Shown piece after piece: positions 14,729 to 40,521 of a DNA stretch of 40,760 nt (position 1 is its first letter; each line of letters begins with the position of its first letter). Origin of the DNA: Tropicibacter sp. R16_0 (lineage in GTDB: Bacteria; Pseudomonadota; Alphaproteobacteria; Rhodobacterales; Rhodobacteraceae). Location of the stretch: positions 1 to 40,760 of the forward strand of contig NZ_JAGHRE010000022.1 of NCBI RefSeq assembly GCF_017743935.1. Direction: 5' to 3'. The notes under the pieces are model-generated. The model ran no database searches. It had not been told where the DNA came from and worked only from the letters and a program-made list of their open reading frames with translations. A program made the translations under genes and the position numbers.

Positions 14729-14755
14729 TGAAAATATCCTAAAATCAAATAGATA

Positions 14756-17978: not shown

Positions 17979-18074
17979 TGATACAACTCGAACACTCTGG
18001 CCAAAAACGATTCCCGGCTGTTGCGACGCTGGATCGTCCGAACTGATGTGCCTTGCACCAATGGGAAAGTGATT

Positions 18075-20211: not shown

Positions 20212-20223
20212 GGCTCTGTCTCC

Positions 20224-22520: not shown

Positions 22521-22585
22521 TGGGCTCTCCATTGTTGTCATGGACCCAAAGATAAAGGGGGGCAAAAATGACAACAGACCCTCAA

Positions 22586-22606
22586 ACTGGAACCGAACGT
22601 TCCAGT
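22586..22606. promoter_or_regulatory. Inverted repeat between LysR gene and propeller operon
   Basis: ACTGGAAC and GTTCCAGT (8-base arms, perfect) flank CGAAC. It lies just past the LysR stop and 66 bases before the propeller start codon. It could be an operator for the trio or, since TTT follows on the leftward strand, a weak terminator of the LysR gene. Confidence 0.55.
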
Positions 22607-22614
22607 ATTTAGAA

Positions 22615-23553: not shown

Positions 23554-23633
23554 ATCCCACTGTTCTGAATTTATGGCAACACGTATCTGTTTCTCATCAA
23601 AGGCCCGCAGCGGGCGAACATGGAGATAGAAAC

Positions 23634-24518: not shown

Positions 24519-24525
24519 AGCAATA

Positions 24526-24552
24526 GGCTGGCCGGGATTGCTCCGGCCAGCC
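24526..24552 (+). other. Strong hairpin between two SDR genes
   Basis: A perfect 10-bp stem GGCTGGCCGG/CCGGCCAGCC with loop GATTGCT lies 7 bases after the SDR stop. There is no T run, so it may stabilise the upstream message or attenuate transcription of the next gene instead of terminating it. Confidence 0.6.
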
Positions 24553-24599
24553 GCCAAGCCAACGCTGCTCTCCCTGTACTTCTGAATAGGATGATCAAC

Positions 24600-25439
24600 A
24601 TGACACACCCCGCGTTTCAATCTTCATCCGTTGCCGTCATCACCGGTGGCGCGTCGGGTATTGGCCTTGCCGCCGCGACCAAGTTCGCTGGCATGGGAAT
24701 GAAAATCGTCGCAGTCGACCGCGATACCGATAAGCTGGCCGAGGCCGAGGACGCTCTGCGTGTCGCGGGTGCGGCAGACGTGATGACGGCCTCGACTGAC
24801 GTCTCCGACCGTGTGCAGCTCGAAGCCCTTGAAAAAGAGGTAACGGGACGTTTCGGAGGCGCGGATATCCTGATGAATAATGCTGGTGTCGGCGGCCGGA
24901 CGTCATGCCTGACCGCACCTGACATCTGGGAGAAGATACTGGGTGTCAATCTTTGGGGCGCCATTCACGGCACCCAAGTATTCGCGCCGGGCATGATCGA
25001 ACGGGGCCGCCCCGGCGCGATCATCAACACTGGGTCCAAACAGGGGATTACAACACCGCCCGGAAACCCGGCCTACAATGTGTCCAAGGCCGGTCTGAAA
25101 GTCTTTACCGAAGCACTGGCGCACGAACTGCGAAACACCGAAGGCTGCCAGATTTCTGCACATCTATTGGTGCCCGGCTTTGTTCACACGGCGATGATCG
25201 GTGCCACCGAAAAACCCGCCGCCGCATGGACAGCGGAGCAAACGGTGGATTTCTTCGTGGAAAGCGTAAACCGCGGCGATTTCTACATCCTGTGCCCTGA
25301 CAACGATGTGCCGCGCGCGCTGGACGAGAAACGCATCGCATGGGCCGTCGGCGACATTATCGAAAACCGCCCGCCGCTCAGCCGCTGGCACCCCGACTAT
25401 GCTGACTCTTTCGCAGCTTTCGTCGCGCAGGAAAGCTGA
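24600..25439 (+). CDS. SDR-family oxidoreductase
   Basis: The 279-residue protein shows TGGASGIG (14-21), NNAGVG, active-site Ser in NTGSKQG and YNVSK. Its C-terminal region (FYILCPDNDVPRALDEKRI ... RPPLSRWHPDYADSF) matches in style the three SDRs of the 30.8-33.3 kb cluster (FYILPNIGDYQDIIDAR), indicating a related subfamily. I chose ATG 24600 because AGGA lies 8 bases upstream; ATG 24591 has no spacing to a ribosome binding site. It follows the SDR at 23634 by 81 bases and may share its LysR control. Confidence 0.88.
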   Translation: MTHPAFQSSSVAVITGGASGIGLAAATKFAGMGMKIVAVDRDTDKLAEAEDALRVAGAADVMTASTDVSDRVQLEALEKEVTGRFGGADILMNNAGVGGRTSCLTAPDIWEKILGVNLWGAIHGTQVFAPGMIERGRPGAIINTGSKQGITTPPGNPAYNVSKAGLKVFTEALAHELRNTEGCQISAHLLVPGFVHTAMIGATEKPAAAWTAEQTVDFFVESVNRGDFYILCPDNDVPRALDEKRIAWAVGDIIENRPPLSRWHPDYADSFAAFVAQES

Positions 25440-25611
25440 ACGAGCGCATTGCAGCACCGTAGTAGTAGCAGCACGCGGCTGCCAGTGCTCGTGTCGCATC
25501 CAGAAATGAATCCGTCCAACTTCTGCCCCCCGGAGAAAGTGGACCGTGCAATTGATCCCAGAAAATTGAGGCCGCTACTTCGGACTCATGATTCAATAAT
25601 TGGAGAAGCAG

Positions 25612-26040
25612 ATGGCAACTCGTGGGCATTGCTTGTGCAAAGAGACGCGGTGGGAGTTTGAAGGCGAGGTGACTTGGGCCTGCTACTGTCATTGCGACGA
25701 TTGCCGCAGAAACTGCGCCGCACCGGTCGTCGCCTGGCTGGGCGTACCAGTCAAGAACTTCAAGTGGACCGGAAACGAGCCGAAGACCATTGAAAGTTCC
25801 AAAGGCGTGTTCAGGCATTTTTGCAACGACTGCGGATCACCGATTGGATTTGAAGCTGATCATTATGCAGGAGGGATGCACCTATACGCAGCGTCCCTGG
25901 AAAACCCGGAGGATTTCAAGCCGACCTTTCATGTGAATTATCAGAGCAAACTGCCCTGGCTTCAGATGAACGATGACCTAACGAAGTACGAGGGGACATT
26001 GCTTCACGCCCCCGAGGATTTGAGTGACTACCACTCATAG
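25612..26040 (+). CDS. GFA (glutathione-dependent formaldehyde-activating enzyme-like) family protein
   Basis: The 142-residue protein has the zinc-binding cysteines of the GFA/CENP-V fold: GHCLCKETRW near the start, CYCHCDDCRRN in the centre and FCNDCGSPI about 50 residues later. The family prototype speeds the reaction of formaldehyde with glutathione, but most members have unknown substrates. The ATG at 25612 follows GGAGAAGCAG. It stands alone, 172 bases after an SDR gene, and is followed by a 163-base gap (26041-26203) without a gene. A link to formaldehyde released by the demethylase at the left end is possible but not supported by position. Confidence 0.85.
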   Translation: MATRGHCLCKETRWEFEGEVTWACYCHCDDCRRNCAAPVVAWLGVPVKNFKWTGNEPKTIESSKGVFRHFCNDCGSPIGFEADHYAGGMHLYAASLENPEDFKPTFHVNYQSKLPWLQMNDDLTKYEGTLLHAPEDLSDYHS

Positions 26041-26203
26041 GCTGGTTCTGCGCGTTCTGGAATGCTGCACGCTGCAAGCTGACCGACAGGACATTTCCTC
26101 CGCCCTCAGCCCTAGGCACTGCACTGGCGACGCGATTGTACTATCCCAGTGAATGTCTAATTGGCGAGCCAGTCAGTCCCGGCCCGCCAATCCTCGCCGG
26201 TTT

Positions 26204-26968
26204 TTAGAACTTTCCGTTCCCATGTACCATCTCTGCTGGCGTGGGCGAAACAACGTCCCAATGCTCTACAATCATACCGTCCTCAACGCGCCAAAGATCG
26301 AAGAAAGCCCAAGGTTTCCCGCTGACGGTGGCATCTGAGGCGACAAAGACAAAATTGCCTTCTGCCACAACAATCTGAGGCTCGAATTTGGTTATAACGT
26401 TGCCCTGTTCGGCCCAGGCTTTGGTGCCCTCCATCAGGCCATCAATCCCATCGGCAAGCATTGGATTGTGCTGCATGTAGACTTCAGAATACATGGGGGC
26501 TTTCTCCGGCGCGGCACCGCCCAAGACGTCGCGCACGAATCCAAGAACCAGCGCCTTGTTCTCTTCTGTTTTGCCGGGATCAGTGATTTCCGTCGCTCCA
26601 TCGGTCATACCACGGCCAGACACCGTCGTTTCAGGAACTGGCTGAAGATTGTCCCAATGTTCCGCAACTTTGCCGTCCTCCACCCGGAAAATGTCGAACG
26701 CGGCAAGGGTCGGTGCGCCAAAAGCGTCTGCGTTTTCAAAAGTGCTGTGCAGCACAACCATATCGCCTTCGGTGATGACCCTATGGGTCGTCGCGGTCAT
26801 ACCGGATTGCTCGACCAAAGGTATCAAGCCGACCAAACCCTCAGCTCCGGTCGGGATCTGCGGGTTGTGCTGGATGTAATCCGGGGTAACGAGTTGCCGC
26901 GCAACTTCCGGCTCGTGATCGGCAAAGGCAGCAGTGAAGAGTGCGATGACAAGTTCTTTGGGAGTCAT
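26204..26968 (-). CDS. Tandem SnoaL-like (NTF2 fold) protein
   Basis: The 254-residue protein consists of two copies of the same domain: residues about 1-115 (QHNPQIPTGAEGL, DIFRVEDGKVAEHWDNLQP) and about 130-250 (QHNPMLADGIDGL, DLWRVEDGMIVEHWDVVSP). Each matches the SnoaL-like polyketide cyclase/NTF2 fold, with the QHNP and EHWD motifs kept in both. Such proteins often act on small hydrophobic compounds, but function cannot be assigned. It diverges from an HxlR regulator gene, the common arrangement for a regulated target; no signal peptide is seen (the short hydrophobic N-terminus VIALFTAAF belongs to the first helix). Confidence 0.82.
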   Translation of the reverse strand: MTPKELVIALFTAAFADHEPEVARQLVTPDYIQHNPQIPTGAEGLVGLIPLVEQSGMTATTHRVITEGDMVVLHSTFENADAFGAPTLAAFDIFRVEDGKVAEHWDNLQPVPETTVSGRGMTDGATEITDPGKTEENKALVLGFVRDVLGGAAPEKAPMYSEVYMQHNPMLADGIDGLMEGTKAWAEQGNVITKFEPQIVVAEGNFVFVASDATVSGKPWAFFDLWRVEDGMIVEHWDVVSPTPAEMVHGNGKF

Positions 26969-27014
26969 GGTTTGATCCTCTGATTCGTATCCTCTCGAAA
27001 CGTAGTATCAAATC

Positions 27015-27056
27015 CATACCACATCGCAATTACGTACCTTGAACTGACCTGGTATG
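27015..27056. promoter_or_regulatory. Candidate HxlR operator half-sites
   Basis: CATACC (27015-27020) and its inverse GGTATG (27051-27056) flank a third half-site GTACC (27034-27038) in the 145-base gap between the divergent SnoaL and HxlR genes. Spacing and GTA-C-like ends resemble HxlR-type operators. Confidence 0.4.
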
Positions 27057-27113
27057 TTGAAGGCTACCGCAATAAAAGCCAGGGGAGGGTTGTGAAGAGT
27101 TCGTGCCAGGGCT

Positions 27114-27530
27114 ATGATGCCTGCCAGTTTCGAAACAGTACCAGAGACTGAGATGCTACCAATAGGTGTTACCAATAAAGCGGAGGCCTCAAACTGCTCC
27201 ATCCGTTCTGTGCTTTCCAATGTGACTGGCAAATGGCGGATGATCATCATCCTCGCGCTGGAGGACGAGCCGAAGCGCTTTGGCGATCTCAAGCGCTGCA
27301 TCGGAGATGTCACGCAGAGTGTGCTAACCGAGAACCTGCGCGGACTGCAGCGCGATGGTTACCTGACGCGCACCGTCGATCCAGGGCCGCCGGTGGCTGT
27401 ATCCTACGAATTGACACCTTTGGGCAGAAGTTTACTCGAGATGTTAAAGCCACTCGTCTTCTGGTCGCATGAGCAGATGGATGAAGTCAGGCGATTCCGA
27501 ATGCTATACGACCGTGAGCAGGCGAGTTGA
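27114..27530 (+). CDS. HxlR family transcriptional regulator
   Basis: The 138-residue protein is a winged-helix regulator of the HxlR (MarR-like) type: CSIRSVLSNVTGKWRMIIILALEDEPKRFGDLKRCIGDVTQSVLTENLRGLQRDGYLTR and SYELTPLGRSLLEMLKPLVFW. The first residue pair is MM; ATG 27117 or 27153 are alternatives. Members respond to aldehydes, quinones or thiol stress; the Cys residues (one near 28, one in the RCIG turn) could be redox sensors, but this is unproven. It diverges from the tandem SnoaL gene and likely controls it. Confidence 0.87.
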   Translation: MMPASFETVPETEMLPIGVTNKAEASNCSIRSVLSNVTGKWRMIIILALEDEPKRFGDLKRCIGDVTQSVLTENLRGLQRDGYLTRTVDPGPPVAVSYELTPLGRSLLEMLKPLVFWSHEQMDEVRRFRMLYDREQAS

Positions 27531-28167: not shown

Positions 28168-29010
28168 TCAGCTCATTGCAATCGCTTGAAGCTCCGCCTG
28201 CGACCGAACGCCCAGCTTGCTGTAAATGTTCTTCCGGTGAACGCGTTCGGTGGCCGGGGAAATATCGAGCTCATTGGCGCAGGCTTTCGAGGAATAGCCG
28301 CGGATCAGGTATCCGACAATTTCACGTTCGCGATGTGTCAGAACCTCGGAAGCAAACTCACCAAGTTTGCGACGCACACTGTCCGTCCGGCCATGCTCGA
28401 TCGACGTGGATTCAGGTAGGTCGACCAATGACGCGTGGCGCAGCACTGCTTTCTCTACCACGCCCGACAGACGGTCGAGGTTGCGCAGATTGTCGTCTGA
28501 GAACATTGGCAATCTCCTGGACCGTCCCAAGGAGAGGACCAGAGATGTGCCGTCATCAACCTGCACCGTGAATCCTGCCTCATCCACCAGCTTTGACGGG
28601 CGCATATATTCGCGGAAGAAATGGCTGTCGAAAAAATCGCTTGGGACGAGATCTCGCAATCCCCGCAAGCCGGACTGGCCGGATTGCGAGAACCTGTAGA
28701 AAGGGCTTTCCCGGTAAAGCCCGCCGGCAAAGCTGCCACAGGGTTCGTTGGACGCCTGAATGGCTGTGTAAGGTGCCGTTGGCGGGCCATCGGGGCGGTA
28801 CAGAACCACCAACAAATCATCGAACGGGGTTACCTTGAGCATCAATTCTCGCAGACAGGGATAGAAGCTATCTTGTCCGATGGTTTCGAAAAGATTTCCG
28901 ATGTCATCAAAAAGATCGGGCTGTGCCGCGCTCTGCGCCACCGTGGTTTGAAAATCGCCCGTGGGCACTGCGCTTCGGGCGGCCTGTTCCAGCTTACCTT
29001 TAGTGTCCAT
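28168..29010 (-). CDS. LuxR-type (GerE HTH) transcriptional regulator
   Basis: The 280-residue protein has a C-terminal LuxR/GerE helix-turn-helix (about 215-278: LTHREREIVGYLIRGYSSKACANELDISPATERVHRKNIYSKLGVRSQAEL). The N-terminal domain (LFDDIGNLFETIGQDSFYPCLRELM ...) is not a recognisable autoinducer-binding or receiver domain; it resembles the unassigned sensor domains of LuxR regulators beside alcohol/aldehyde oxidation genes. ATG 29010 follows GGGAGGG with 6 bases spacing; the frame is open to 29079. It lies 107 bases downstream of the aldehyde dehydrogenase gene and has an inverted repeat just before its start. Confidence 0.88.
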   Translation of the reverse strand: MDTKGKLEQAARSAVPTGDFQTTVAQSAAQPDLFDDIGNLFETIGQDSFYPCLRELMLKVTPFDDLLVVLYRPDGPPTAPYTAIQASNEPCGSFAGGLYRESPFYRFSQSGQSGLRGLRDLVPSDFFDSHFFREYMRPSKLVDEAGFTVQVDDGTSLVLSLGRSRRLPMFSDDNLRNLDRLSGVVEKAVLRHASLVDLPESTSIEHGRTDSVRRKLGEFASEVLTHREREIVGYLIRGYSSKACANELDISPATERVHRKNIYSKLGVRSQAELQAIAMS

Positions 29011-29038
29011 GACATTCCCTCCCGTGTTGCGGGTTATA

Positions 29039-29057
29039 GTCACGCAATCCACGTGAC
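29039..29057. promoter_or_regulatory. Inverted repeat upstream of the LuxR-type gene
   Basis: GTCACG and CGTGAC (perfect) flank CAATCCA, a 19-bp dyad 28 bases before the start codon. Length and symmetry are comparable to lux-box-like sites; autoregulation is inferred. Confidence 0.45.
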
Positions 29058-29117
29058 CTGTCAAAAACCGATCTTTCACATGTCAGATGGGTTTCGATCA
29101 GCCCTGCATCAACTCAC

Positions 29118-30620
29118 TTATAGTTGCATCGTGATGGTTTTGGTGATCAGGACTGCCTCGAGCTGTTCGCGCCCAAGATCCTTGCCATAACCGGACTGTT
29201 TTACGCCGCCGAAGGCCGTCGCGCTGTCGATTACGTCGTGACAGTTGATCCAGACAGAGCCAGATTGCAGCTGCCGGGAGACACGCTGCGCCCGAGCGCC
29301 ATTCTCGCTCCAGACGGAAGCTCCGAGCCCGTAGGCGTTGTCGTTGGCCATCGCGATCACCTCTTCTTCTTCATCGAAGGGAACCGCGACCAGAACCGGA
29401 CCAAAGATCTCTTCTTGCACCAGAGGGTGTGTATTGTCGTCCAGGGCAATGAGCGTTGGATTGACGAAATAGCCGGGACCTTCTGGCAAATCGCCGCCAA
29501 AGATCACGTCGCCGTCGCGTTTTCCCATTTCAAGATAGCGACCAATCGATTGTTGGGCGCCTTGTGAAATGACCGGACCGACATCGCAGGCGGGATCCAG
29601 ACCGGCGCAAACACTCAGCGCTGCAATCTTGTCTTTGATTGCCTTTACGCCGTCGTCAAAGATCGACCTGTGCAGATAGAGCCGCGAGCCTGCGGAACAG
29701 TTTTGCCCGGCGTTGAAGTAGATGCTCCACCGGGTGGCTTCGGCCAAATCATCCAGATTTGTATCTTCAAAAACGACCATCGGAGATTTGCCGCCCAATT
29801 CCAAGGTGGCCGGAACAAGATGGCTGGCCGCCGCCAGCGCAACGGACTTACCTACCTCGGTCGAACCGGTGAACGACACCTTGTCGACACCTGGGTGTCG
29901 GGCAAGGTAGTCACCGATAACCGACCCTTCGCCGGTCACGATGTTCAGAACGCCGGGCGGGAACCCGGCCTCTTGCGTCAGTCTGGCGAAATAGGTCATC
30001 GACAGCGGCGTCATGGCGGCCGTTTTCAGAACGATGGTGCAGCCAGCGGCCAGCGGCGCTGCAATCTTCCAGGCCGACATATTGAGCGGCCAATTCCATG
30101 GTGCGATGGCCGCCACCACACCGATGGGCTCGCGCAGGGTGTAGGAAAAGAAATCTCCCGGCACTGACAGCGACTTGGTGGCGCCCTCTATTTTCGTGGC
30201 CCACCCGGCCATGAAGCGGAACAGATCAGCCGAGCCCAGTACATCGAAGTCCTTGCAGGGGCCGATGGCTTTGCCGTTGTCGATGGTCTCGATCTGGGCA
30301 AGGATGTCGGCATCCCGCTCCATCAGGTCAGCCAGTTTCAACAGGATGTTCTGGCGTTCATTGGGCGCCATGCGCGACCAGATGCCAGAGTCGAAAGTGG
30401 CGCGAGCCGACGCGACAGCTGCGTCCACGTCCGCCGTGCTACCCAACAGAACCTCGGTTAGTTGCTGCCCTGTTGACGGCTCCATCACCGCCTTGGTGCC
30501 CGTGGCTTGGCCGTCGGTGAAATCACCGTTGATGAACATCTTTGGAATTTGCGAGACGGCTGTACGCACCTCAGGCAATACATTGAAACGGTTGAGATAG
30601 CGTTCGACATCTATATGCAT
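29118..30620 (-). CDS. NAD-dependent aldehyde dehydrogenase
   Basis: The 500-residue protein is a complete class 1/2-type aldehyde dehydrogenase. Asn176 (PWNWP), Glu274 (TLELGGK) and the catalytic Cys308 (NAGQNCSAGSR) are all present, along with the coenzyme loop FTGSTEVGK. It oxidises an aldehyde to the carboxylate; family members close to this pattern act on betaine aldehyde, aminoaldehydes or phenylacetaldehyde, and the substrate is not resolved. ATG 30620 follows GGAAAGG. It is divergent from the three-SDR operon with a 251-base gap. In the inferred pathway it removes an aldehyde made by the dehydrogenases, by the TPP-dependent complex or from a guanidino-amine. Confidence 0.93.
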   Translation of the reverse strand: MHIDVERYLNRFNVLPEVRTAVSQIPKMFINGDFTDGQATGTKAVMEPSTGQQLTEVLLGSTADVDAAVASARATFDSGIWSRMAPNERQNILLKLADLMERDADILAQIETIDNGKAIGPCKDFDVLGSADLFRFMAGWATKIEGATKSLSVPGDFFSYTLREPIGVVAAIAPWNWPLNMSAWKIAAPLAAGCTIVLKTAAMTPLSMTYFARLTQEAGFPPGVLNIVTGEGSVIGDYLARHPGVDKVSFTGSTEVGKSVALAAASHLVPATLELGGKSPMVVFEDTNLDDLAEATRWSIYFNAGQNCSAGSRLYLHRSIFDDGVKAIKDKIAALSVCAGLDPACDVGPVISQGAQQSIGRYLEMGKRDGDVIFGGDLPEGPGYFVNPTLIALDDNTHPLVQEEIFGPVLVAVPFDEEEEVIAMANDNAYGLGASVWSENGARAQRVSRQLQSGSVWINCHDVIDSATAFGGVKQSGYGKDLGREQLEAVLITKTITMQL

Positions 30621-30871
30621 GGGTGGAGCCTTTCCAAGTCTGCGTTTGCGACAGATTTCAGTGGGGGAAGGCGCATTTCCCATACCTCAATCGCGGTAGC
30701 TAGAGCACCCAGGTATAGGGCTCGCGGAAAATTCCGAAATAATTACAGCACTTTACCACTGTTTCGCTAACGCTACTGCAATTGCGGTATACAGGAGTAA
30801 TGGATCCTTTCCCATTCTTGCAGGGAACCGAAAGGGGCATGACGTGCCCCGCATCGAAAGGACAGTGGGAC
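30621..30871. promoter_or_regulatory. Divergent control region between aldehyde dehydrogenase and SDR operon
   Basis: The gap holds two copies of CAATYGCGGTA (30688-30698 and 30779-30789, one mismatch, 91 bases apart, same orientation) and the dyad CGGAA-AA-TTCCG (30725-30736). They are candidate sites for the LuxR-type or AraC-type regulator of the cluster. No gene is seen. Confidence 0.4.
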
Positions 30872-31678
30872 ATGTTGAAATCCCTCGAAGGCAAGGTCGC
30901 CGTCATCACTGGTGGCGCAGGTGGGATCGGCAGCGCAATCGCGCGATGCTGCCTTGACGGTGGGATGCGCGTTGTCATTGCCGATATCAGCGATGAAGCG
31001 TTGGAACGCGCAGCAAAAGACCTGAATGTGCCTGATCGGTTGCACACTGTGGTCTGCGATGTATCGACTCTGGCAGGCAATGAGCAGCTTTGTGCTGCGA
31101 CGCTGCAACGGTTCGGACAGGTCAACTTGGTTTGCCTAAATGCCGGCGCTGCCCGACTAAAACCAATGCAAGACGTCACCGAGACAGAATGGCGGTTGCA
31201 GGTGGGTGTGAACCTTGACGGTCCATTCTTCGGCATCAAGGCGTTTCTTCCGACGTTGGAGCAGCAGGATGACGCGCACATCGTTGTGACGGCTTCAGTC
31301 ATGAGTTTGTTTTCTGCCCCCGTCATGGGTCCGTATTTTGCTACGAAGGCGGCTGTGCTCTCTCTGGTCGAGAGCCTCTATTTCGATCTGCAAAACGCGG
31401 GCAGCCATGTCGGAGTGTCCGCCCTGATGCCCGGAGATACGCGCACGGACGCGATGAAGAACTCTGTGCAGGAAGACACCGATCCTGAACTGGCCGAAAT
31501 GGCAAAAAGTGATCTGGAGCACGGGACGCCGCCCGAAACTGTTGCGCGCGCGGTGTTGCAGGCCGCCCAGGATGGCAGTTTCTACATCCTGCCAAACATC
31601 GGCGACTATCAGGACATTATCGACGCCCGCCATCAGCGCATTCGACAACGGCTGTTGCCCGATGCCGAATTGGCTTGA
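30872..31678 (+). CDS. SDR-family oxidoreductase, first of three
   Basis: The 268-residue protein carries TGGAGGIG (11-18), LNAGAA, the active-site Ser in VTASVMS and YFATK. It is a paralog of the SDR at 32459-33277: both share the VNLDG, AHIV, PYFA(T/S)K and CPG/MPGDTRT segments. It starts the five-gene operon. I chose ATG 30872 (AAAGGA 9 bases upstream) because it begins the conserved fold; upstream starts (30782, 30839) add unconserved residues. It probably oxidises an alcohol or diol intermediate with NAD(P). Confidence 0.88.
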   Translation: MLKSLEGKVAVITGGAGGIGSAIARCCLDGGMRVVIADISDEALERAAKDLNVPDRLHTVVCDVSTLAGNEQLCAATLQRFGQVNLVCLNAGAARLKPMQDVTETEWRLQVGVNLDGPFFGIKAFLPTLEQQDDAHIVVTASVMSLFSAPVMGPYFATKAAVLSLVESLYFDLQNAGSHVGVSALMPGDTRTDAMKNSVQEDTDPELAEMAKSDLEHGTPPETVARAVLQAAQDGSFYILPNIGDYQDIIDARHQRIRQRLLPDAELA

Positions 31679-31697
31679 ACCCGATTGAGGAAAGATC

Positions 31698-32447
31698 ATG
31701 ACGAAGAACAGATTTGAAAACCGAACAGTGCTGGTCACTGGCGGCGGCGGCGGAATTGGCCGGGCCATGTGCCACAGTTTCGCTGGTGAGGGCGCTTTTG
31801 TGATTGCCGCGGACCTGAACCACGAAGCGGCAAAGGAAACCATTGCCCTGTTGCCTGAAAACGGTCAGGGATCGGCCGCCAAGCTGGACGTGACAGACGG
31901 TGATAGCTGGTGCGCTTTGCGAGAGCACATCCTGTCCGAGCGCGACGGTTTAGATATCCTGTGCAACAATGCCGGTGTGATGCTGACCGGTCCGCTGGAT
32001 CAGGCCAAGCTCAGCGATTGGTTGCTTCAGGCACAGGTTAACGTGGCAGGCGTCCTTCTGGGCTGTCAGACCTTCTTGCCCGATATTCGTCAGAGCGGCG
32101 GCAACATCCTGAACACCGCTTCGCTGGCAGGTATGCACCCCTGGCCCGATGCGGCGCTCTATGCGGCATCGAAATACGCGGTGGTTGGGCTGTCCGAAAC
32201 CCTGCGGCTCGAGGCCGGGGACAATGTCCATATCGGCATCCTCGCACCCGGTGGGATCGATACCGCAATGACCGCGCAGCTGGAAAATGATGGCGAAGAA
32301 CGCCTGCTCCCCCCTGAGGCGGTGTCGGAACTGGTGTTGGATGCCGTGGCCGAGCGACGTGATTGGGTGTTCACCCACTCGGAGTATCTGGATGCGATAG
32401 AAGCACGCCACGCCGGTATCGTGGCCGATTACCGCAAGATTACCTGA
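31698..32447 (+). CDS. SDR-family oxidoreductase, second of three
   Basis: The 249-residue protein has TGGGGGIG (14-21), CNNAGV, the active-site Ser in NTASLAG and YAASK. It is of classical length and differs from the flanking SDR pair, so it likely handles another intermediate. GAGGAAAG precedes its ATG; the gap to the first SDR is 19 bases and to the third 11, supporting one transcript. Confidence 0.88.
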   Translation: MTKNRFENRTVLVTGGGGGIGRAMCHSFAGEGAFVIAADLNHEAAKETIALLPENGQGSAAKLDVTDGDSWCALREHILSERDGLDILCNNAGVMLTGPLDQAKLSDWLLQAQVNVAGVLLGCQTFLPDIRQSGGNILNTASLAGMHPWPDAALYAASKYAVVGLSETLRLEAGDNVHIGILAPGGIDTAMTAQLENDGEERLLPPEAVSELVLDAVAERRDWVFTHSEYLDAIEARHAGIVADYRKIT

Positions 32448-32458
32448 AGGGCGACAAC

Positions 32459-33277
32459 ATGATCACGGATTTCAAAGGAAAGACCGCTGTTATCACCGGC
32501 GGTGCGCATGGGATCGGCTATGCCTTTGCGCAAGAGTGCCTTGGAAAGGGTATGAATGTCGTCATCACCGCCTCGCGGCAGAGTTCGGTCGACAAGGCAG
32601 TTGCAACGCTTGAAGGTGGCGATCGGCTGATCGGTGTGCAAAGCGATGCTGGTGATGCAGAGGCAAATGCGAAGCTGGCCAAACTGGTGAAGGACAAGTT
32701 CGGACAGCCAAGCCTGTTGGTTTTGAACGCGGGCATTTCGCGCATGGCTCCAATTCATGACCTTACACCTGAGAAATGGCGCCAGACATTGTCCGTTAAC
32801 CTGGACGGGGTCGCTTATGGAACGTTGGCGTTCTTGCCGTTGATGGAACAGCAGACAGAGGCGCATATCGTTATAAACGCTTCGATCTTCGGGTTTTTCT
32901 CGGCCGGGCTGCAAGCACCTTACTTCGCCTCCAAGGCCGGAGCAGTCGCTTTTGCCGAGACGCTTTACTACGACCTGCTGGCAGCGGGCTCACCGGTGGG
33001 GGTCTCGCTTCTTTGTCCCGGGAACACGCGGACAAACATCCTGGAAACCGCTTTGACAGGCGAGGAACCTGAAGAGTTTCGCCAACTGATCGAGGCGGAA
33101 ATGGCAGCCGGAACCAGCCCCGCGTTTGTGGCGCAGGCCACCCTGGATGCCGTCCGCGACAACACCTTTTACGTCACGCCAAACACCGGCGACTTCATTT
33201 ATCCGATCGAGGCGCGATTTGACCGCATCCTGAAGGGCCGCAACCCGGCCCCCGAAGATGTGGGCGATACCGTCTGA
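32459..33277 (+). CDS. SDR-family oxidoreductase, third of three
   Basis: The 272-residue protein has TGGAHGIG (12-19), LNAGIS, the active-site Ser in INASIFG and YFASK. It is clearly paralogous to the first SDR of the operon (same length class, shared FYVTPNTGDF / FYILPNIGDY near the C-terminus), suggesting a local duplication followed by divergence. The ATG at 32459 follows AAGGGCGACAAC; the frame is open upstream to 32363 but overlaps the previous gene. Confidence 0.87.
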   Translation: MITDFKGKTAVITGGAHGIGYAFAQECLGKGMNVVITASRQSSVDKAVATLEGGDRLIGVQSDAGDAEANAKLAKLVKDKFGQPSLLVLNAGISRMAPIHDLTPEKWRQTLSVNLDGVAYGTLAFLPLMEQQTEAHIVINASIFGFFSAGLQAPYFASKAGAVAFAETLYYDLLAAGSPVGVSLLCPGNTRTNILETALTGEEPEEFRQLIEAEMAAGTSPAFVAQATLDAVRDNTFYVTPNTGDFIYPIEARFDRILKGRNPAPEDVGDTV

Positions 33278-33305
33278 CCGAAACAAGACTTGAAAGGAAA
33301 AGGTC

Positions 33306-33761
33306 ATGAGCGAAGGAACCACTCACCACGCAACGCCTGATGACCCAAATGCGCGGGCGGTCATTCATGCATATGAAGACACGGTGATGAATGAGGGGGC
33401 GCATGCCTCTTATGACAAGCATTTTGCCGAGGATTGCTTTTACCTGTGGTATGGAAACAGCCCGGTTGCGGGCCGCTACGAAGGCATCGGGGGCCTCAAG
33501 CGGTTCTGGGATCTGTTGACCGAGCTTTGCGACCCCGAACCCTCGCCGGTCATAGAATTGGCCGGGGGGGGATTTTACATGTATCACGTGGAAGGCAAGC
33601 TGACAGGACCTGATGGAGAGGTGTTCACCACCAAGATCGTCGGCAATTACGAGGTCGAGGGCGACAAGATCAAATCCGGCAGGTTTTGGGCCTTTGACCA
33701 GGACGGGTTTGATGCATTTCTGTGGCGCGCCCGTGCCATTTTGGACAAGCGGCGCGACTGA
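33306..33761 (+). CDS. NTF2-like (SnoaL-type) protein
   Basis: The 151-residue protein fits a single NTF2-like domain: helix NARAVIHAYEDTVMNEGAHA, KHFAEDCFYLWYGN, and a C-terminal FTTKIVGNYEVEGDKIKSGRFWAF. The motif set differs from the two SnoaL domains at 26204-26968. It could be an isomerase, dehydratase or binding protein for a pathway intermediate; context puts it between the SDRs and the ureohydrolase. GAAAGGAAAAGG-like purines precede its ATG. Confidence 0.8.
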   Translation: MSEGTTHHATPDDPNARAVIHAYEDTVMNEGAHASYDKHFAEDCFYLWYGNSPVAGRYEGIGGLKRFWDLLTELCDPEPSPVIELAGGGFYMYHVEGKLTGPDGEVFTTKIVGNYEVEGDKIKSGRFWAFDQDGFDAFLWRARAILDKRRD

Positions 33762-33781
33762 AAATAACAAGGAGACGGGTG

Positions 33782-34765
33782 ATGACGGTTTCCAAAGAAC
33801 AGATTGCAGCATTCTATTCCACCGACACCCTGGCTGGCGATCGCATGGCGGGGATCGACGGGCTGCGTCACACCGGTATCGCCACCTTCATGCGCTGCCC
33901 GCATCGTACTGCACTGAAGGATGTCGATATCGGTATTCTCGGAGTGCCCTACGATGGAGGTCTAACGACCCGTACCGGCGCCCGTCACGGTCCCCGCGAA
34001 GTGCGCAACCAATCGAGCTTGATCCGGCGGATCAATGTCGCAACCGGCGCCCGCCCGTTCGAGGCCGCGCGGATTGCCGATCTGGGCGATGTCGCGTTCA
34101 CCGAGGTGTTCAGCCCGGCCACCGCCCTACCCGAGATCGAAGCACATGTTCGCGCAATCACCCAAGGCGGAGTTCTGCCCTTGCTGGTTGGCGGCGATCA
34201 TTCGATTTCCTATCCGTCGTTGCGGGCGGTCACGGAAAATGGAGCCAAGCCCTGCGCCCTGATCCATGTCGACAGTCATACCGATACATGGCCCGTCTTT
34301 CAGGGATCGAAATTTCATCATGGCTCGCCCTTCCGGCTGGCGGTCGAGGACGGGTTGATCGATCCCAAACGCACAGTGCAAATCGGCATTCGGGGCGGGC
34401 AGAATATTACAGACGGGCTCGACTACAGCCGCGATAGCGGTATGCGGGTAATGATGATCGAAGAATTCGATGATGTTGGCTGGAAGCAGGCGGCCGCTGT
34501 TGCCCGCGAGGTTGTTGGGAATGAGCCGGTCTATCTGAGCTTTGATATCGACGCGCTGGATCCCGTCTTTGCACCAGGAACCGGAACGCCTGAACCAGGC
34601 GGGATCACGATGCGTGAAGCACAGCGGTTCCTGCGCGAGTTGCAGGGTCTGGAATTCGTGGGTGGCGACATTGTGGAGGTGTCTCCCCCGTTCGACAGCG
34701 CGGGAGTGACTGCCTTGAACGCAGCCACCTTGCTGTTCGAGATGCTGTGTTTGATGACAGACTAG
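33782..34765 (+). CDS. Agmatinase-family ureohydrolase
   Basis: The 327-residue protein belongs to the arginase/agmatinase superfamily, which hydrolyses a guanidino group to urea and an amine using two Mn ions. All six metal ligands are visible: His140 (GGDH), Asp164, His166, Asp168 (HVDSHTDTW) and Asp255, Asp257 (SFDIDALDP). The usual DAHTD motif has Ser for Ala at 165. The substrate could be agmatine, guanidinobutyrate, guanidinopropionate or another guanidino compound; the sequence does not decide, so no gene symbol is given. It starts 20 bases after the NTF2-like gene and closes the five-gene operon. Confidence 0.92.
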
Positions 34766-34864
34766 AAAACCTATCGTTTTCAGATTGGTAGAAGACAAGA
34801 GCGTTTCGGTTTTCCGGGGCGCTCCTTTCGTTCGTCAGCAGTGTGCCCTCGCTGACATGGCCGA

Positions 34865-34878
34865 AAATCCTAGGATTT
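34865..34878. promoter_or_regulatory. 14-bp perfect palindrome upstream of the E1-alpha gene
   Basis: AAATCCTAGGATTT is a perfect palindrome in the 225-base gap between the ureohydrolase and E1-alpha genes. It is a candidate operator for the AraC-type regulator or another regulator. A hairpin-like GAGCG/CGCTC pair (34799-34824) lies upstream and may partly end the first operon. Confidence 0.5.
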
Positions 34879-34913
34879 AGTCCGTTCGTCCCATTGTCCG
34901 AATCCCCACCCGA

Positions 34914-34950
34914 GCCGATCTTTGAAGGGTCAGGATAGGTCCGGATCGGC
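34914..34950. promoter_or_regulatory. Inverted repeat GCCGATC/GATCGGC
   Basis: Perfect 7-base arms (34914-34920 and 34944-34950) flank 23 bases, 41 bases before the E1-alpha start. It could be a second operator or a leader hairpin. Confidence 0.4.
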
Positions 34951-34990
34951 ACCTGACATGGACGCAAACCCGCCTGTTAGGGAACTGGCC

Positions 34991-36007
34991 ATGAGCATAT
35001 CGAATACCGCGCTGACGATAGAGGACCGCAAGCTGCTGTTCACCAACCTGCTGCGTGCCGACGAATACGACCGAACCATGTACAAGCGCATGATGTCCGG
35101 CAAGCTTCTGGGGTTCTACCACCCCGGTGAAGGGGCGATTGCACCGGGCATCGGAGCTGCGACGTTTCTCAATCAGGATGACGTCCTCAGCCCACATCAC
35201 CGCGCCCACGGCATGGCCCACGCGTTGGCCAAAGGCGTGGATCTGAAACCCTATCTGGCCGAACATACAGGCAAGGCTGGCGGTTGCTCCGAGGGGCGCT
35301 CGTCGTTCCACATGTCTTTCCCCGAGCACAAGATCTACATGTTCTCGGGCTTCATCGGCTTCAATTTCGCGCCTGCGGTCGGATACGGCTATGCCGCCAA
35401 GCTGAGCGGCAAAGGTCAAGTTGTCATGATGTGCTCGGGCGATGGCTCCTACGGTCAGGGCCGCGCGCATGAGGCGATGTTGATGGCGCAGAACATGAAA
35501 CTGCCGATCATCTTCTGGTGCGAAAACAATGGGCTGGCGATCCACGCCGAGGCGTCCGAGATGCACCCGATGCCCGATATCTCTTCGCTGGCGGATGGCT
35601 ACGGCATGCCCAAACGCATTGTTGATGGACAGGACGTCTTTGCCTGTGCCGAGGCAGCACGCGAAGCGATTGACCATGCCCGCGAAGGCAAAGGGCCGAT
35701 GTTCGTCGAGTGTAAGACGCTGCGCTTGAAGGAACACGATATCGGGACACCGGACCTGATCGGTTCGACCCCGCGCAGCAAGGAAGACATTCTGAAACAG
35801 GCCGAGCGAGAGCCGGTGAAACTGGCCATGCAAAAGGTGCTGGCCGACGGATTGTTCACCATGGACGAGATTGACGATCTGCGCACCGCCGCCCGTGCTG
35901 AAGTGGAAGCAGCTTGGGATTGGGCCGATGCCCAACCGTTTCCAGAAGATGGTGAAGCAGAGCTGATGACTCACGTCTTTGCCCCCAATGCAGAGGACGC
36001 CGCATGA
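34991..36007 (+). CDS. Acetoin/2-oxoacid dehydrogenase complex E1 component, alpha subunit
   Basis: The 338-residue protein is a TPP-dependent E1-alpha: the TPP/Mg site GDGS (150-153) with the paired Asn179-Asn180 about 27 residues later, the His-rich SPHHRAHGMA near 67-77 and GGCSEGRSSFHMS around 97-109. With E1-beta it decarboxylates or cleaves its substrate and passes the acyl group to lipoyl-E2. Overall pattern is closer to acetoin dehydrogenase (AcoA) than to classical pyruvate dehydrogenase, but I do not assign a symbol. ATG 34991 follows AGGGA; upstream starts (34958, 34922) are unconserved. Its end overlaps the E1-beta start by ATGA. Confidence 0.88.
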   Translation: MSISNTALTIEDRKLLFTNLLRADEYDRTMYKRMMSGKLLGFYHPGEGAIAPGIGAATFLNQDDVLSPHHRAHGMAHALAKGVDLKPYLAEHTGKAGGCSEGRSSFHMSFPEHKIYMFSGFIGFNFAPAVGYGYAAKLSGKGQVVMMCSGDGSYGQGRAHEAMLMAQNMKLPIIFWCENNGLAIHAEASEMHPMPDISSLADGYGMPKRIVDGQDVFACAEAAREAIDHAREGKGPMFVECKTLRLKEHDIGTPDLIGSTPRSKEDILKQAEREPVKLAMQKVLADGLFTMDEIDDLRTAARAEVEAAWDWADAQPFPEDGEAELMTHVFAPNAEDAA

Positions 36008-36969
36008 CCCGGCAATTGCCTTTCATCGAAGCAATCCGCGAAGCTCTGCGCGAAGAGATGATCCATGACGACAAGGTCTTTCTGGTCGGACAGGACATCC
36101 GTGGTGCGATCTATCCGCATACCAAGGGTCTGGTGGATGAGTTCGGCCCTGACCGTGTTGTCGATACGCCGATCTCAGAGAGTGGCATGTATGGCATGGC
36201 CTCGGGCGCTGCGCTCCAAGGCTACCGCCCGGTGGTTGACTTCATGTTCGGAGGTTTCACTTATGTGACCTTTTCCGAGGCAACCGTCACCACCGGCCAA
36301 CAGTATTTTCTGCACGGTTCCAAGTCCAACATGCCGCTGGTGATTACGGCTGGTGTCGGCGCCGGGATGCGGCTGGCCAATGACCATTCGATGGCGATCC
36401 ACGGCACCTTTGCGCATCATCCTGGGATCAAGGTGGCCATGCCGTCCACACCCTATGACGCCAAAGGCATGTTCAAGGCGGCAATCCGGGACAATTCCCC
36501 GGTGGTGATCCCCTGGCACATGGCGCTGATGATGGACAAGGGCGAGGTGCCGGATGAGGACTACGTGGTGCCTCTGGGCAAAGCCGATATCAAGCGCGAA
36601 GGCGCGGATGTAACCGTCGTTGCGAATTCGCAGCAGTTGAAATTTGCGCTGCAGGTTGCAGAAAAGCTCGACGGTGAAATCAGTGTCGAGGTCTTCGACC
36701 CACGCTCTTTCGTGCCCTTCGACATGGATCTCCTCCTGACCTCACTGGCGAAGACCTCCCGCCTTGTGATCGTTGACGAGGATTGGGAAAGTGGCGGCTT
36801 CGCGGCCACGCTCTCGGCTCGCGTGATGGAACAGGGTTTCGACTTGCTCGATGCTCCCGTCCTGCGCGTCACTTTCCCGAACATGCCCATCCCCGGCGGG
36901 GTTCTGGAGCCGCGTGTGATGCCCAATCCCGAACGGATCGAAGCGGCCATTCGCGCTGTGATGGAGTGA
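36004..36969 (+). CDS. Acetoin/2-oxoacid dehydrogenase complex E1 component, beta subunit
   Basis: The 321-residue protein is an E1-beta transketolase-like subunit: EAIREALREEM at the N-terminus, VVDTPISESG (Glu at about residue 59, near the TPP pyrimidine), the conserved MFGGFTYVTF segment and the C-terminal domain VEVFDPRSFVPFD ... VTFPNMPIPGG. It pairs with the E1-alpha just upstream (four-base overlap). E2 begins 4 bases after its stop. Confidence 0.93.
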   Translation: MTRQLPFIEAIREALREEMIHDDKVFLVGQDIRGAIYPHTKGLVDEFGPDRVVDTPISESGMYGMASGAALQGYRPVVDFMFGGFTYVTFSEATVTTGQQYFLHGSKSNMPLVITAGVGAGMRLANDHSMAIHGTFAHHPGIKVAMPSTPYDAKGMFKAAIRDNSPVVIPWHMALMMDKGEVPDEDYVVPLGKADIKREGADVTVVANSQQLKFALQVAEKLDGEISVEVFDPRSFVPFDMDLLLTSLAKTSRLVIVDEDWESGGFAATLSARVMEQGFDLLDAPVLRVTFPNMPIPGGVLEPRVMPNPERIEAAIRAVME

Positions 36970-36973
36970 AGCG

Positions 36974-38209
36974 ATGAGTACAGTTCCCTTTCTGATGCCC
37001 AAGCTCGCGATGGCGATGAACGAAGGCACGGTGACCCAGTGGCATGTCGCAACCGGAGACCGGATCGCCAAGGGGCAGGAAATAGCCACCGTGGAAACAG
37101 AGAAAGTCGCCTATGAGGTCGAAGCCCCGCAAGACGGGTTCATTCGGATCATTGCCGACGAAGGCGCAGTGGTCCCCGTTGAAACACCAATCGCCTTTAT
37201 CGGCCAGTCCGAAGCAGATCTGGAAGGAAACCAAGCAAAGGTTGATCCCACTGGTTCCGTGACAGAGACCGAACCTGACATTGTGATGCCGGTTCCGCAG
37301 GTCGACGCTTTGGCCGCCAATTCCGATGTGGGGCGGATCAAGATCACCCCGCTGGCCAAGCGGATCGCGAAGGACGCCGGGTTCGACTATGTAGGCGTCA
37401 AAGGCTCTGGCCCGGGTGGCCGCATCAAGCGGATCGACATCGAAACCGCCCTGGCGGCTCGAGTATCTGCGCCGCAAGTTCCACCATCCGCCGATGTCCC
37501 GACGACCCTAATCCCCGTCTCCGACAGTCGCCGCTTCATTGCCGAACGGATGCGCAGCAGCCTGCGGGAAACCGCTCAGCTTTCCGCCAACTGGGAGAGC
37601 GATATCACCGATCTTCTGGCGTTCCGTAAGTCGCTGGTGTCCAAGGAAGAGTTGCTGGGTGCACGGATCTCGATGAACGCGGTTCTGGCAAAGATCGTGG
37701 CCCAGGCGGCGCTCGATGTGCCGATCGTCAATGCGCAGTGGGATGGTGACAACATTCGCCTGAACAAAACAGTGAACCTGGCTTTCGCGGTCGCGGTCCC
37801 CAATGAAAGCGGACTGGACAGTCGGCTTCTCGTGCCGGTGATCCGGGATCTCGAGAGCAAAGGTCTGGCGCAGATTCAGACCGAATTGGACGAGGCGATT
37901 GAAAAGGCCCGCGCTGGGCAGCTGACAGCCGCAGAAATGTCAGGCAGCACAATCACCTTCAGTTCGACTGCTGGGCTGGCGCCACCGGGCTGCACCAACA
38001 CACCGATCCTGAATGGGTCCAACGCAACCCTGGTGGGTGTGTCCACCGCAATCGAGCGCCCGGTGGTGAAGGATGGCCAGATCGTGCCGCGCACCATGAT
38101 GCCGATTTCCCTGACCTTCGATCACGCATTGGTCGATGGCGAGCCAGTGGCCCGTTTCGCCCACGCCCTGCACGAGCGGCTGGAAAATCCGGCGCTGTTG
38201 GTGGCTTGA
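36974..38209 (+). CDS. Dihydrolipoamide acyltransferase (E2)
   Basis: The 411-residue protein has one lipoyl domain (1-77, lipoyl Lys44 in ETEKVAYEVEA), a peripheral E3/E1-binding domain (about 118-155, ITPLAKRIAKDAGF ... SGPGGRIKRIDIE) and a catalytic domain (about 170-411). The catalytic motif reads DHALVDG with His384 and Asp388, in place of the more common DHRxxDG. It transfers an acyl group from lipoate to CoA. It starts with GGAG 7 bases upstream. No E3 gene is within this operon; the dihydrolipoamide dehydrogenase at the right edge could supply it. Confidence 0.93.
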   Translation: MSTVPFLMPKLAMAMNEGTVTQWHVATGDRIAKGQEIATVETEKVAYEVEAPQDGFIRIIADEGAVVPVETPIAFIGQSEADLEGNQAKVDPTGSVTETEPDIVMPVPQVDALAANSDVGRIKITPLAKRIAKDAGFDYVGVKGSGPGGRIKRIDIETALAARVSAPQVPPSADVPTTLIPVSDSRRFIAERMRSSLRETAQLSANWESDITDLLAFRKSLVSKEELLGARISMNAVLAKIVAQAALDVPIVNAQWDGDNIRLNKTVNLAFAVAVPNESGLDSRLLVPVIRDLESKGLAQIQTELDEAIEKARAGQLTAAEMSGSTITFSSTAGLAPPGCTNTPILNGSNATLVGVSTAIERPVVKDGQIVPRTMMPISLTFDHALVDGEPVARFAHALHERLENPALLVA

Positions 38210-38250
38210 AATCTACAGAAAACATCAAGAGACATGTGGAGAGGAGACCC

Positions 38251-39483
38251 ATGCTGACCTTGTTTGAAAACGGAAAGCCGATACGAAACCTTGAATCCGG
38301 GGTATTCGTCGTGGCTGCAATCATGCTCACGACCTTTGGTCCAAGTGGGTTTAACTTTCTGCCTCTTATGATGGGAGCCGCTGCGGCGCAGTTTGGGCTG
38401 GACCCGGCAACCGCAGAAGGTGCTGGCGCCCTGGAAAGCATCGCGGCGGTCGAACTGCTTGTATCGGGCGTGTCCTCAATCATCCTGTCGCTTTTCCTGT
38501 TGCGGCGGGTGAATTGGCGTCACATGCTGTATTTCTCGTTTGCAACGCTGCTGGTTGGGAACCTGCTGAGCATGACGGCAACCAGTGCCGAGGCGTTCAT
38601 GAGCTATCGCGCCATTGCTGGGATCGGGCAAGGTATGGCCTATGCGCTTGGCCTTGCATCGGTCAGCGTATCGGCGCGTCCGGCGCGGAACTTCGGGCTT
38701 GTTGTCTCGGCCGCCTGTCTCTGGCAAGTGATCGGTTTCATCCTGATTCCGACGCTTACGGCTGGTGACTTCAAGCCGATGATGCAGATCATTGCTTTGA
38801 CCACAGTGCCGGTTCTCATTGCCTCGATCTGGGTGCCCGACAATGGTCGCCTGGAGCGCGACGCGCAGCTGGTCCACTCGCGCGGCAATATCACCTTCCG
38901 CGACTTTGCCCTCCCGGCCATACTGGTTCTTGTCGGGTTCATGATCTTCAACGTTTCGCTTGGCATCATTTACCCCTACATGGAAATCATTGCCGGAGAG
39001 CTCGGAGCTACGACAGACGACTTCGGCCTTGCGGTTGTTGCGGGTTTCCTGGTCGCCGCCGCTCTCGGTTTCATGGCAGGCTGGATCGACAGAACTTTCA
39101 ACGACGTGCTGCTGATCGTGGTCTTTGGCGGAATCAACGCTGTGCTGCTTTGGCTGCTGGCAGGTGCCGCGACAGCATCAACTTACCTCATTCTGATCGG
39201 GCTCTACACGGCTGCGTGGAACTTCTACTACGCCCGCGCCTTCACGGCCACGTCGAACACGGACAGATCGGGTTACGCCGCCTCCTTTGGCCCCGAGGCG
39301 GTGACGTCGGGATTGATCATCGGTCCGATCCTGGCCCAAGCACTGACGGTCACGGGCGATTTTAGCGGGCAAATCGAAATTGCCGCTGTCGCAGCCTTGG
39401 TCGGATCGCTGGTGATCGCCTTTGCCATCAGGCTCGGCCATCGCAAAGCGCGCCAGCTGTTTGATGCAGAAGCGCCAGCCTGA
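38251..39483 (+). CDS. MFS transporter
   Basis: The 410-residue protein has about twelve membrane segments (for example 22-45, 78-98, 107-127, 173-190) and MFS-like loops after the second segment (LLRRVNWRHM) and in the centre (NGRLERDAQL). It is the last gene of the E1/E2 operon, 41 bases after E2, with GGAGAGGAG 4 bases before the ATG. It probably imports the substrate of the pathway. A terminator follows at 39504. The substrate cannot be predicted from sequence. Confidence 0.88.
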   Translation: MLTLFENGKPIRNLESGVFVVAAIMLTTFGPSGFNFLPLMMGAAAAQFGLDPATAEGAGALESIAAVELLVSGVSSIILSLFLLRRVNWRHMLYFSFATLLVGNLLSMTATSAEAFMSYRAIAGIGQGMAYALGLASVSVSARPARNFGLVVSAACLWQVIGFILIPTLTAGDFKPMMQIIALTTVPVLIASIWVPDNGRLERDAQLVHSRGNITFRDFALPAILVLVGFMIFNVSLGIIYPYMEIIAGELGATTDDFGLAVVAGFLVAAALGFMAGWIDRTFNDVLLIVVFGGINAVLLWLLAGAATASTYLILIGLYTAAWNFYYARAFTATSNTDRSGYAASFGPEAVTSGLIIGPILAQALTVTGDFSGQIEIAAVAALVGSLVIAFAIRLGHRKARQLFDAEAPA

Positions 39484-39498: not shown

Positions 39499-40521
39499 TT
39501 AGGAAGAGGCGGCGAATTCCGCCTCTTTTGCGCGGAATTCGGTTGGCGTTACGCCGGCCCAGTTCCGAAATGCATGAAAGAAGCTTGGTGGGCTGCCATA
39601 CCCGACCAGATAGCTGATCTCATCCACGGTCATACGGCTGTTGCGCAAGTGATTGCAGGCCGTTGCCAAACGAACATCCAATACAATGTCGCGGACTGTG
39701 GTGCCGTTTTTGGCACATATCCGGCGCAGCGATCTTTCACTGGTGTTCATTGTCTTGGCGATCTCGGGAACGCTTGGAATGTCGGGTAGGTTTTCCGACA
39801 CGACCCGGCGAATGTGATCAACGTCGGCCTGAGCGTTTGGCAGCCCCCTGACAATCAGTTCGCATTGTTGTTCCAACATCGCAGCCACCACCGGATTGGC
39901 GTTCAGGGGGCTGGCCGTGAGCATTTCGCTATTGAAGTCGAAGCGATACCCCGGCTGATCGAAGACAAATGGTATTCCCAGCAGAGCCGATTTTTCCAGC
40001 CTGTCAGGCGTTTCTGGTAAGGGTACGTAAAAGGCATTGGCCCAGCGAGAAATTCCGAACACTTCTTGCGAAAATCTGTTCCAAGCAGCGGCGAACTCAT
40101 CAAGAAAATACTCATGCAGATCGTCGGGCGCCGATTCTTGGTATGTGATCGCGACGTAAGGGTGCGCTCCTTCAAGATCGTATTCGGCCTGCCAAAGTAT
40201 TTCGGCGATTGAAAGGAATTGAAAAACCCTCTCGAACACCACTCGACCCGACGAGGAAGAGGCCACAAGCATGCCCAGTGGGCCAAAATCCATCAGGCTC
40301 ATCGAAGCTCCCACCAGAACTCCAAGATCCGGGCGCCCGGAAACCTCCAGGGCCTTTCGCACCATCCTGTATTGTTCCCGTTGCAGGGCTGGGCCGGACA
40401 TCGAGGACAATCTGGTGTCGCTCCATCCTTCTTCACTCCAGAGCCTGCCGGGATCATGGCCAAGGCTTTCCAGCGTCTCAGTCATTCGGCGGATGTATTT
40501 GATCAACATGTCGGTCTGCAT
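39499..40521 (-). CDS. AraC family transcriptional regulator
   Basis: The 340-residue protein has an N-terminal arabinose-binding-like domain of the type found in OruR/AraC-like activators (about 20-210) and a C-terminal AraC HTH pair (about 240-335: VPEIAKTMNTSERSLRRICAKNGTTV, then MTVDEISYLVGYGSPPSFFHAFRNWAGVTPTEFRAK). It is convergent with the E1/E2/MFS operon and is the likely activator of that cluster, sensing its substrate; this is inferred from position. A dyad GGTCAG/CTGACC (40592-40618) lies upstream of its start. Confidence 0.9.
   Translation of the reverse strand: MQTDMLIKYIRRMTETLESLGHDPGRLWSEEGWSDTRLSSMSGPALQREQYRMVRKALEVSGRPDLGVLVGASMSLMDFGPLGMLVASSSSGRVVFERVFQFLSIAEILWQAEYDLEGAHPYVAITYQESAPDDLHEYFLDEFAAAWNRFSQEVFGISRWANAFYVPLPETPDRLEKSALLGIPFVFDQPGYRFDFNSEMLTASPLNANPVVAAMLEQQCELIVRGLPNAQADVDHIRRVVSENLPDIPSVPEIAKTMNTSERSLRRICAKNGTTVRDIVLDVRLATACNHLRNSRMTVDEISYLVGYGSPPSFFHAFRNWAGVTPTEFRAKEAEFAASS
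39504..39529 (+). terminator. Rho-independent terminator, catabolic operon
   Basis: A perfect 9-bp stem AAGAGGCGG/CCGCCTCTT with loop CGAATT is followed by TT. It starts 20 bases after the MFS stop and lies inside the last codons of the convergent AraC gene, so it also serves that gene's end in part. Confidence 0.8.

Follow-up and report, generated by a model that had tools for sequence, protein, structure and literature searches.

A candidate catabolic gene cluster of Tropicibacter sp. R16_0 that combines a probable guanidino-acid hydrolase with short-chain dehydrogenases and an E1/E2 dehydrogenase complex

Guanidino compounds are a source of nitrogen, and routes for their breakdown are still being found. 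The window analysed here, which is one entire contig (C14, 40760 bases) of Tropicibacter sp. R16_0, carries a cluster of 12 genes in which a ureohydrolase stands with three short-chain dehydrogenases/reductases (SDRs), an E1/E2 dehydrogenase complex, a major facilitator superfamily (MFS) transporter, an aldehyde dehydrogenase (ALDH) and two regulators. With GpuA, GbuA and human GDAH/AGMAT the ureohydrolase shares the arginase-family fold, all metal ligands and an arginine equivalent to GbuA R72, but its loop A is not of the ND(H/R)(M/Y)FG type and it forms a separate clade; the surrounding cluster showed no recognisable guanidino-acid transporter or gpuR/gbuR-like context. An operon of Halomonas and Paraburkholderia encodes an enzyme of the same wider subfamily (54-58% identity, with the HTDTW...FQG motif in common), together with a polar amino-acid ABC transporter, a urea-carboxylase-associated protein (UAAP) and an M20 carbamoylase. 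The window cluster has no ABC, UAAP or M20 gene, whereas that operon lacks the SDR1-3/E1/E2 set. A plasmid of Pseudomonas sp. MPC6 holds the closest ureohydrolase (62.5%), with MFS and AraC proteins of the same families as those of the window, but has class III aminotransferases, a serine hydrolase and acyl-CoA genes where the window has SDRs and E1/E2. We tentatively favour, at less than even confidence, a cluster for the catabolism of a compound that bears at least one hydroxyl or keto group besides a guanidino group, and from which urea would be removed late.

The genes listed in an initial annotation of this DNA are all present as open frames with intact motifs, and their families are those named, except that the NTF2-like protein matches no family. 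Five lie close together on the forward strand: SDR1 (30872-31678; PF00106, adh_short; motifs TGGAGGIG and YFATK), SDR2 (31698-32447; PF00106; TGGGGGIG and YAASK), SDR3 (32459-33277; PF00106), a small NTF2-like protein (33306-33761) and the ureohydrolase (33782-34765; PF00491, 294 bits; TIGR01230). Computed from the likely starts, the gaps are 19, 11, 28 and 20 bases, within the 11-28 originally given. On the same strand, 225 bases past the end of the ureohydrolase gene, begins a second unit whose families were confirmed by Pfam, comprising a thiamine pyrophosphate (TPP)-dependent dehydrogenase E1 alpha (34991-36007, start ATG at 34991; PF00676, E1_dh, 180.8 bits; TPP motif GDG...NN), E1 beta (36004-36969; PF02779, Transket_pyr, and PF02780, Transketolase_C; DTPISE), E2 (36974-38209; Biotin_lipoyl, E3_binding and 2-oxoacid_dh domains; ETEK lipoyl site and HALVDG) and the MFS transporter (38206-39483; PF07690, MFS_1, 40.1 bits). 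The two E1 genes overlap by 4 bases and E2 follows E1 beta after 4 bases; the MFS gene overlaps E2 by 4 bases if it starts at TTG, or follows after 41 bases if it starts at a possible ATG (38251).

On the reverse strand, divergent from the five-gene unit, lie an NAD(P)-type ALDH (29118-30683; PF00171, 521 bits; GQNC and ELGGK motifs) and a LuxR-type (GerE) regulator (28168-29079; PF00196, 54.3 bits; possible inner start ATG near 29010). A convergent AraC regulator with an Arabinose_bd N-terminal domain (39499-40521, reverse strand; PF12625 and PF12833, HTH_18) closes the cluster. This arrangement is as first described, except that the AraC gene falls beyond the interval 28168-39483 to which it had been assigned. 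The SDRs, ALDH, E1 alpha, E1 beta, E2 and ureohydrolase all retain their catalytic motifs. In the Pfam search none of the 12 cluster proteins was identified as a transaminase, an amine oxidase, a ring-opening enzyme or an oxygenase, and no E3 gene was recognised in the cluster. The source genome has a urease alpha gene.

The ureohydrolase is a probable guanidino-acid hydrolase, and its sequence places it nearer to such enzymes than to the agmatinase of Escherichia coli. It passes the agmatinase cut-off of TIGR01230 (191.7 versus 174.3 bits) and falls below that of the subfamily model NF002564 (285 versus 302). Its best relatives in the Protein Data Bank (PDB) are 3-guanidinopropionase (3nip, 303.9 bits), guanidinobutyrase (270.5 bits) and proclavaminate amidinohydrolase (258.4 bits), which outscore E. 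coli agmatinase (185.5 bits). In the alignment all metal ligands are kept, namely His129, Asp152, His154, Asp156, Asp243 and Asp245 in GbuA numbers, of which 129-243 are named in PMC9772407 and 245 was placed by alignment. The arginine equivalent to GbuA R72 is kept in 32 of the 34 aligned rows; the R72 of one subunit is described as covering the active site of its neighbour and as able to contact the substrate carboxylate (PMC9772407).

In trees of 38 and then 34 rows (own_L006, own_L007, own_L008 and L032 being omitted from the latter because they had long branches or a broken frame), the window enzyme formed the same clade, at 100/100 support, with those of a gammaproteobacterial metagenome-assembled genome (L010, 61%) and of the MPC6 plasmid. 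Across 15 Halomonadaceae loci (55-58% identity) the ureohydrolase gene lies behind an amino-acid ABC transporter and UAAP in every case, and 13 of these loci have an M20 carbamoylase gene immediately upstream; loci of Paraburkholderia and Caballeronia have the same set plus a cupin. The ABC and UAAP set was found at 17 of the 28 ureohydrolase loci examined, and a window-like cluster at none. The loci that share this operon, mostly with M20, are L012-L018, L020-L022, L024-L027, L032, L093 and L094. Within the source genome, ureohydrolase matches are spread over contigs C2, C3, C6, C11, C14, C22, C31 and C34; C22 begins with two that are near neighbours, and one of this pair groups with GbuA.

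SDR1 and SDR3 are paralogues (about 43%), and SDR3 is a rare family member. The aspartate after the second strand is present in SDR1 (VVIAD) and SDR2 (VIAAD) and absent from SDR3 (VVITASR), which by a general rule suggests that SDR1 and SDR2 use NAD and SDR3 NADP. The first PDB matches of SDR1 and SDR3 are the uncharacterised 3ioy and 5ig2, followed by the C-alpha dehydrogenases 4y98, 4yae and 4ya6, and SDR2 behaves likewise. The matches also extend to many alcohol dehydrogenases of other kinds. The Sphingobium C-alpha dehydrogenases, which we take to be the LigD type, share the SDR fold and catalytic motifs with the window proteins and are among their better matches, but are not the top match. 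A LigD-type label was tested for the window SDRs and not adopted. The NTF2-like protein has no match in Pfam or NCBIfam. Its single-sequence AlphaFold2 model has a pLDDT of 63.8 and a pTM of 0.60, and Foldseek with this model returned a weak likeness to the NTF2 superfamily (best E 3.9e-3, none at 0.001, TM 0.3-0.4). For the ALDH the best NCBIfam model is StyD, phenylacetaldehyde dehydrogenase (529.6 bits, under its cut-off of 850).

The known acetoin and 2-oxo acid dehydrogenase complexes resemble the second unit in having E1 alpha, E1 beta and a lipoyl E2, in which the TPP, lipoyl and acyltransferase motifs are present; the window proteins differ in scoring below the curated cut-offs and in having no recognised E3 gene beside them. 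For the pyruvate dehydrogenase models the scores and cut-offs are 206.6/393.85 (E1 alpha), 287.1/321 (E1 beta) and 215.1/445 (E2), and the acetoin E2 model NF011457 scores 88.9 versus 307 bits, covering residues 4-159 only. Among solved structures, E1 alpha comes nearest to pyruvate dehydrogenases (about 135 bits), with branched-chain enzymes next. The acetoin-type assignment of the initial annotation was thus tested and not adopted, since no curated model was passed; cleavage of an acyloin and oxidation of a 2-oxo acid are equally possible.

Conservation of the set as one unit had been proposed as a check, and the search found a singleton. Genome samples were drawn evenly from the larger groups, except for the genus, and the source genome is counted in every tally. 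The source genome alone held the NTF2-like gene (1/295 family and 1/398 phylum genomes), E1 alpha (1/198 family genomes at 1e-55) and SDR3 (1/385 class genomes at 1e-60). E1 beta is commoner, as 31 of the 137 genomes sampled from the class have a match at 1e-70 (identity 43-47%); none of 11 neighbourhoods opened, from the 30 other genomes, contained a ureohydrolase or NTF2-like gene, and one (L082) has E1 alpha, E1 beta, E2 and ALDH together. The full gene set was found at 0 of 24 ureohydrolase loci and 0 of 11 E1 beta loci; the contig scan for ureohydrolase used exact peptide patterns, by which distant relatives would be missed. Fourteen of the 24 ureohydrolase genomes were searched for E1 alpha, and five matched at 1e-30, the best at 35%. 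Viral contigs gave no match to the NTF2-like protein or E1 alpha, and plasmids no near DNA match and none to the NTF2-like protein. A 16S search of the source genome had no hit; another of its contigs resembles Leisingera plasmids in DNA sequence (about 80% over part of 19 kb), which suggests a roseobacter-like organism. Similar sets lacking the ureohydrolase, named in the initial annotation as evidence against a single pathway, were not found, because the sampled genomes yielded no similar set of either kind, with or without that gene. Since the set is a singleton in these searches, its conservation gives evidence neither for nor against a single pathway. A literature search, largely at the level of titles and abstract openings, returned no description of this gene set.

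Indirect clues to the substrate come from relatives of the transporter and the regulators. The MFS family is sparse, occurring in 2 of 72,556 plasmid records and in 4 of 398 phylum genomes including the source. On the MPC6 plasmid, MFS and AraC genes of the window's families are found no more than about 5 kb from the ureohydrolase gene, and on an unrelated plasmid of Halioglobus pacificus a window-type MFS and AraC lie near a guanidino hydrolase of the DDAH/ADI family (PF19420, 67.9 bits, and PF02274, 57.2 bits, both over cut-off). Beside this hydrolase stands an M20 carbamoylase, which at 596.9 bits is over its cut-off as well. The AraC proteins of these two plasmids are 24% and 28% alike to that of the window. 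Three LuxR loci were opened among the 8 matches listed (200 records matched): two adjoin polyamine ABC transporters and one an APC permease. The guanidino group that the initial annotation gave to the substrate is thus supported indirectly, by the intact ureohydrolase in a tight unit, the plasmid contexts of MFS and AraC, the polyamine and APC contexts of LuxR, and urease alpha.

The Halioglobus locus (CP019045.1, 49062-79997, L096; locus positions 2500-29594) is an unannotated cluster with the DDAH/ADI-family hydrolase, the M20 carbamoylase, two MFS genes and AraC. It also encodes a PLP-decarboxylase/SDR fusion, three N,N-dimethylformamidase-like stretches, Amidohydro_3 and an acyl-CoA ligase that is 61% identical to one adjoining the MFS gene of genome G888. 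A further MFS locus, on contig C9 of genome G927 (L047), combines MFS, ALDH, E1 alpha and E1 beta; the FAD_binding_3, FAA hydrolase and cupin genes that accompany them are like those of aromatic catabolism.

In the pathway that we propose, the MFS carrier would import the substrate and the three SDRs would oxidise its hydroxyl groups, with the NTF2-like protein perhaps providing an auxiliary step of isomerase, hydratase or lyase type. E1/E2, with E3 supplied from elsewhere, would then cleave a 2-oxo acid or alpha-hydroxyketone to an acyl-CoA, together with an aldehyde in the case of an acyloin, which the ALDH would oxidise. Last, the ureohydrolase would free urea from a guanidino acid, the amino acid passing to central metabolism and the urea to urease, and LuxR and AraC would control the divergent units. 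Urea removal is placed last because the ureohydrolase looks like a hydrolase of guanidino acids and the cluster has no recognised transaminase or amine oxidase. A fuller version is more doubtful, namely that a guanidino hydroxylated compound, perhaps a marine natural product, undergoes SDR oxidation, E1/E2 cleavage and late urea loss by the enzyme of the window/L010/MPC6 clade in an undescribed pathway; in it the MFS/AraC pair would mark uptake of guanidino compounds, because the pair recurs with different guanidino hydrolases.

Several observations weigh against the proposed pathway. The gene set is seen in a single genome, and that genome has 13 ureohydrolase matches, which makes it less remarkable to find one next to a catabolic operon. 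Loops A and B have been linked to substrate binding and catalysis (PMC8125230), and loop A of the window enzyme, TWPVFQG, is unlike NDHMFG of GbuA and NDRYFG of GpuA. The equivalent of R72 is suggestive rather than diagnostic, because a human G105 variant without the arginine still hydrolyses guanidino acids (PMC9772407). Among six MFS loci examined (a seventh, G1158, was left out) the link to a guanidino hydrolase holds in three, the hydrolase being absent at G888, G927 and G943, and the MFS relatives are distant save that of G888 (41%). The 225-base gap before E1 alpha may part two independent units, and the GC content at third codon positions (GC3) of E1 alpha and E1 beta (0.720) is near that of the core genes, with 0.643-0.684 in the five-gene unit. 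Such independence of the five-gene and E1/E2/MFS units is the strongest rival, and we consider it plausible though short of probable that two or three modules stand side by side: SDR/NTF2/ureohydrolase, E1/E2/MFS for a 2-oxo acid or acyloin, and ALDH with its regulator. The same gap and the slightly different GC3 of the two units fit this explanation, as do the many E1 beta relatives in the class, with no ureohydrolase or NTF2-like gene in the opened neighbourhoods, and the G927 locus, which unites MFS, ALDH and E1 alpha/beta without a ureohydrolase. However, the two units share one strand, with a divergent ALDH at the start, a convergent regulator at the end and no unrelated gene between.

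Catabolism of a hydrophobic or aromatic compound, by lignin-type SDRs and an NTF2-like lyase or isomerase, would make the ureohydrolase a hitchhiker or an enzyme that cleaves a non-guanidino C-N bond. C-alpha dehydrogenases among the SDR relatives and the StyD model nearest to the ALDH, though below its cut-off, point that way; yet the SDRs match broadly, with similar scores for R-alcohol and hydroxybutyrate dehydrogenases, and the cluster has no recognised ring-opening or oxygenase gene. We regard this explanation as unlikely. Least probable is the order given in the initial annotation, in which a guanidino alcohol or diol loses urea first, after which oxidation of the amine and its cleavage as an acyloin would follow. 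The ureohydrolase and SDR genes do form one tight unit, and class III aminotransferase genes lie near the MPC6 ureohydrolase, as expected with early amine release, but the window enzyme looks more like a hydrolase of guanidino acids, and the cluster has no recognised enzyme for removing the freed amine.

The proposed cluster was probably acquired horizontally. GC3 is 0.726-0.754 in four genes before a tRNA-Thr gene (14654-14728) and 0.600-0.720 in 21 genes after it, and a close ureohydrolase (at 1e-95) is absent from three other genomes of the genus (1/4 with the source); together these favour acquisition. Against it, a repeat of the tRNA end of at least 14 bases (an att site), sought downstream, was not found, and no integrase was noticed by eye, without a model, among the open reading frames listed at 14501-16000. 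Between tRNA-Thr and the cluster (15454-27530) lie genes for a molybdopterin-binding oxidoreductase subunit, AraC, LysR, three SDRs, a GFA-family protein, a SnoaL-like protein and HxlR.

Should the proposed pathway be wrong, the locus would be an ordinary orphan catabolic region. If it is right, one cluster of a marine bacterium would unite the chemistry of ureohydrolases with that of SDRs and of dehydrogenases for 2-oxo acids or acyloins, and the combination of MFS, AraC and a guanidino hydrolase would offer a handle for finding other such pathways.

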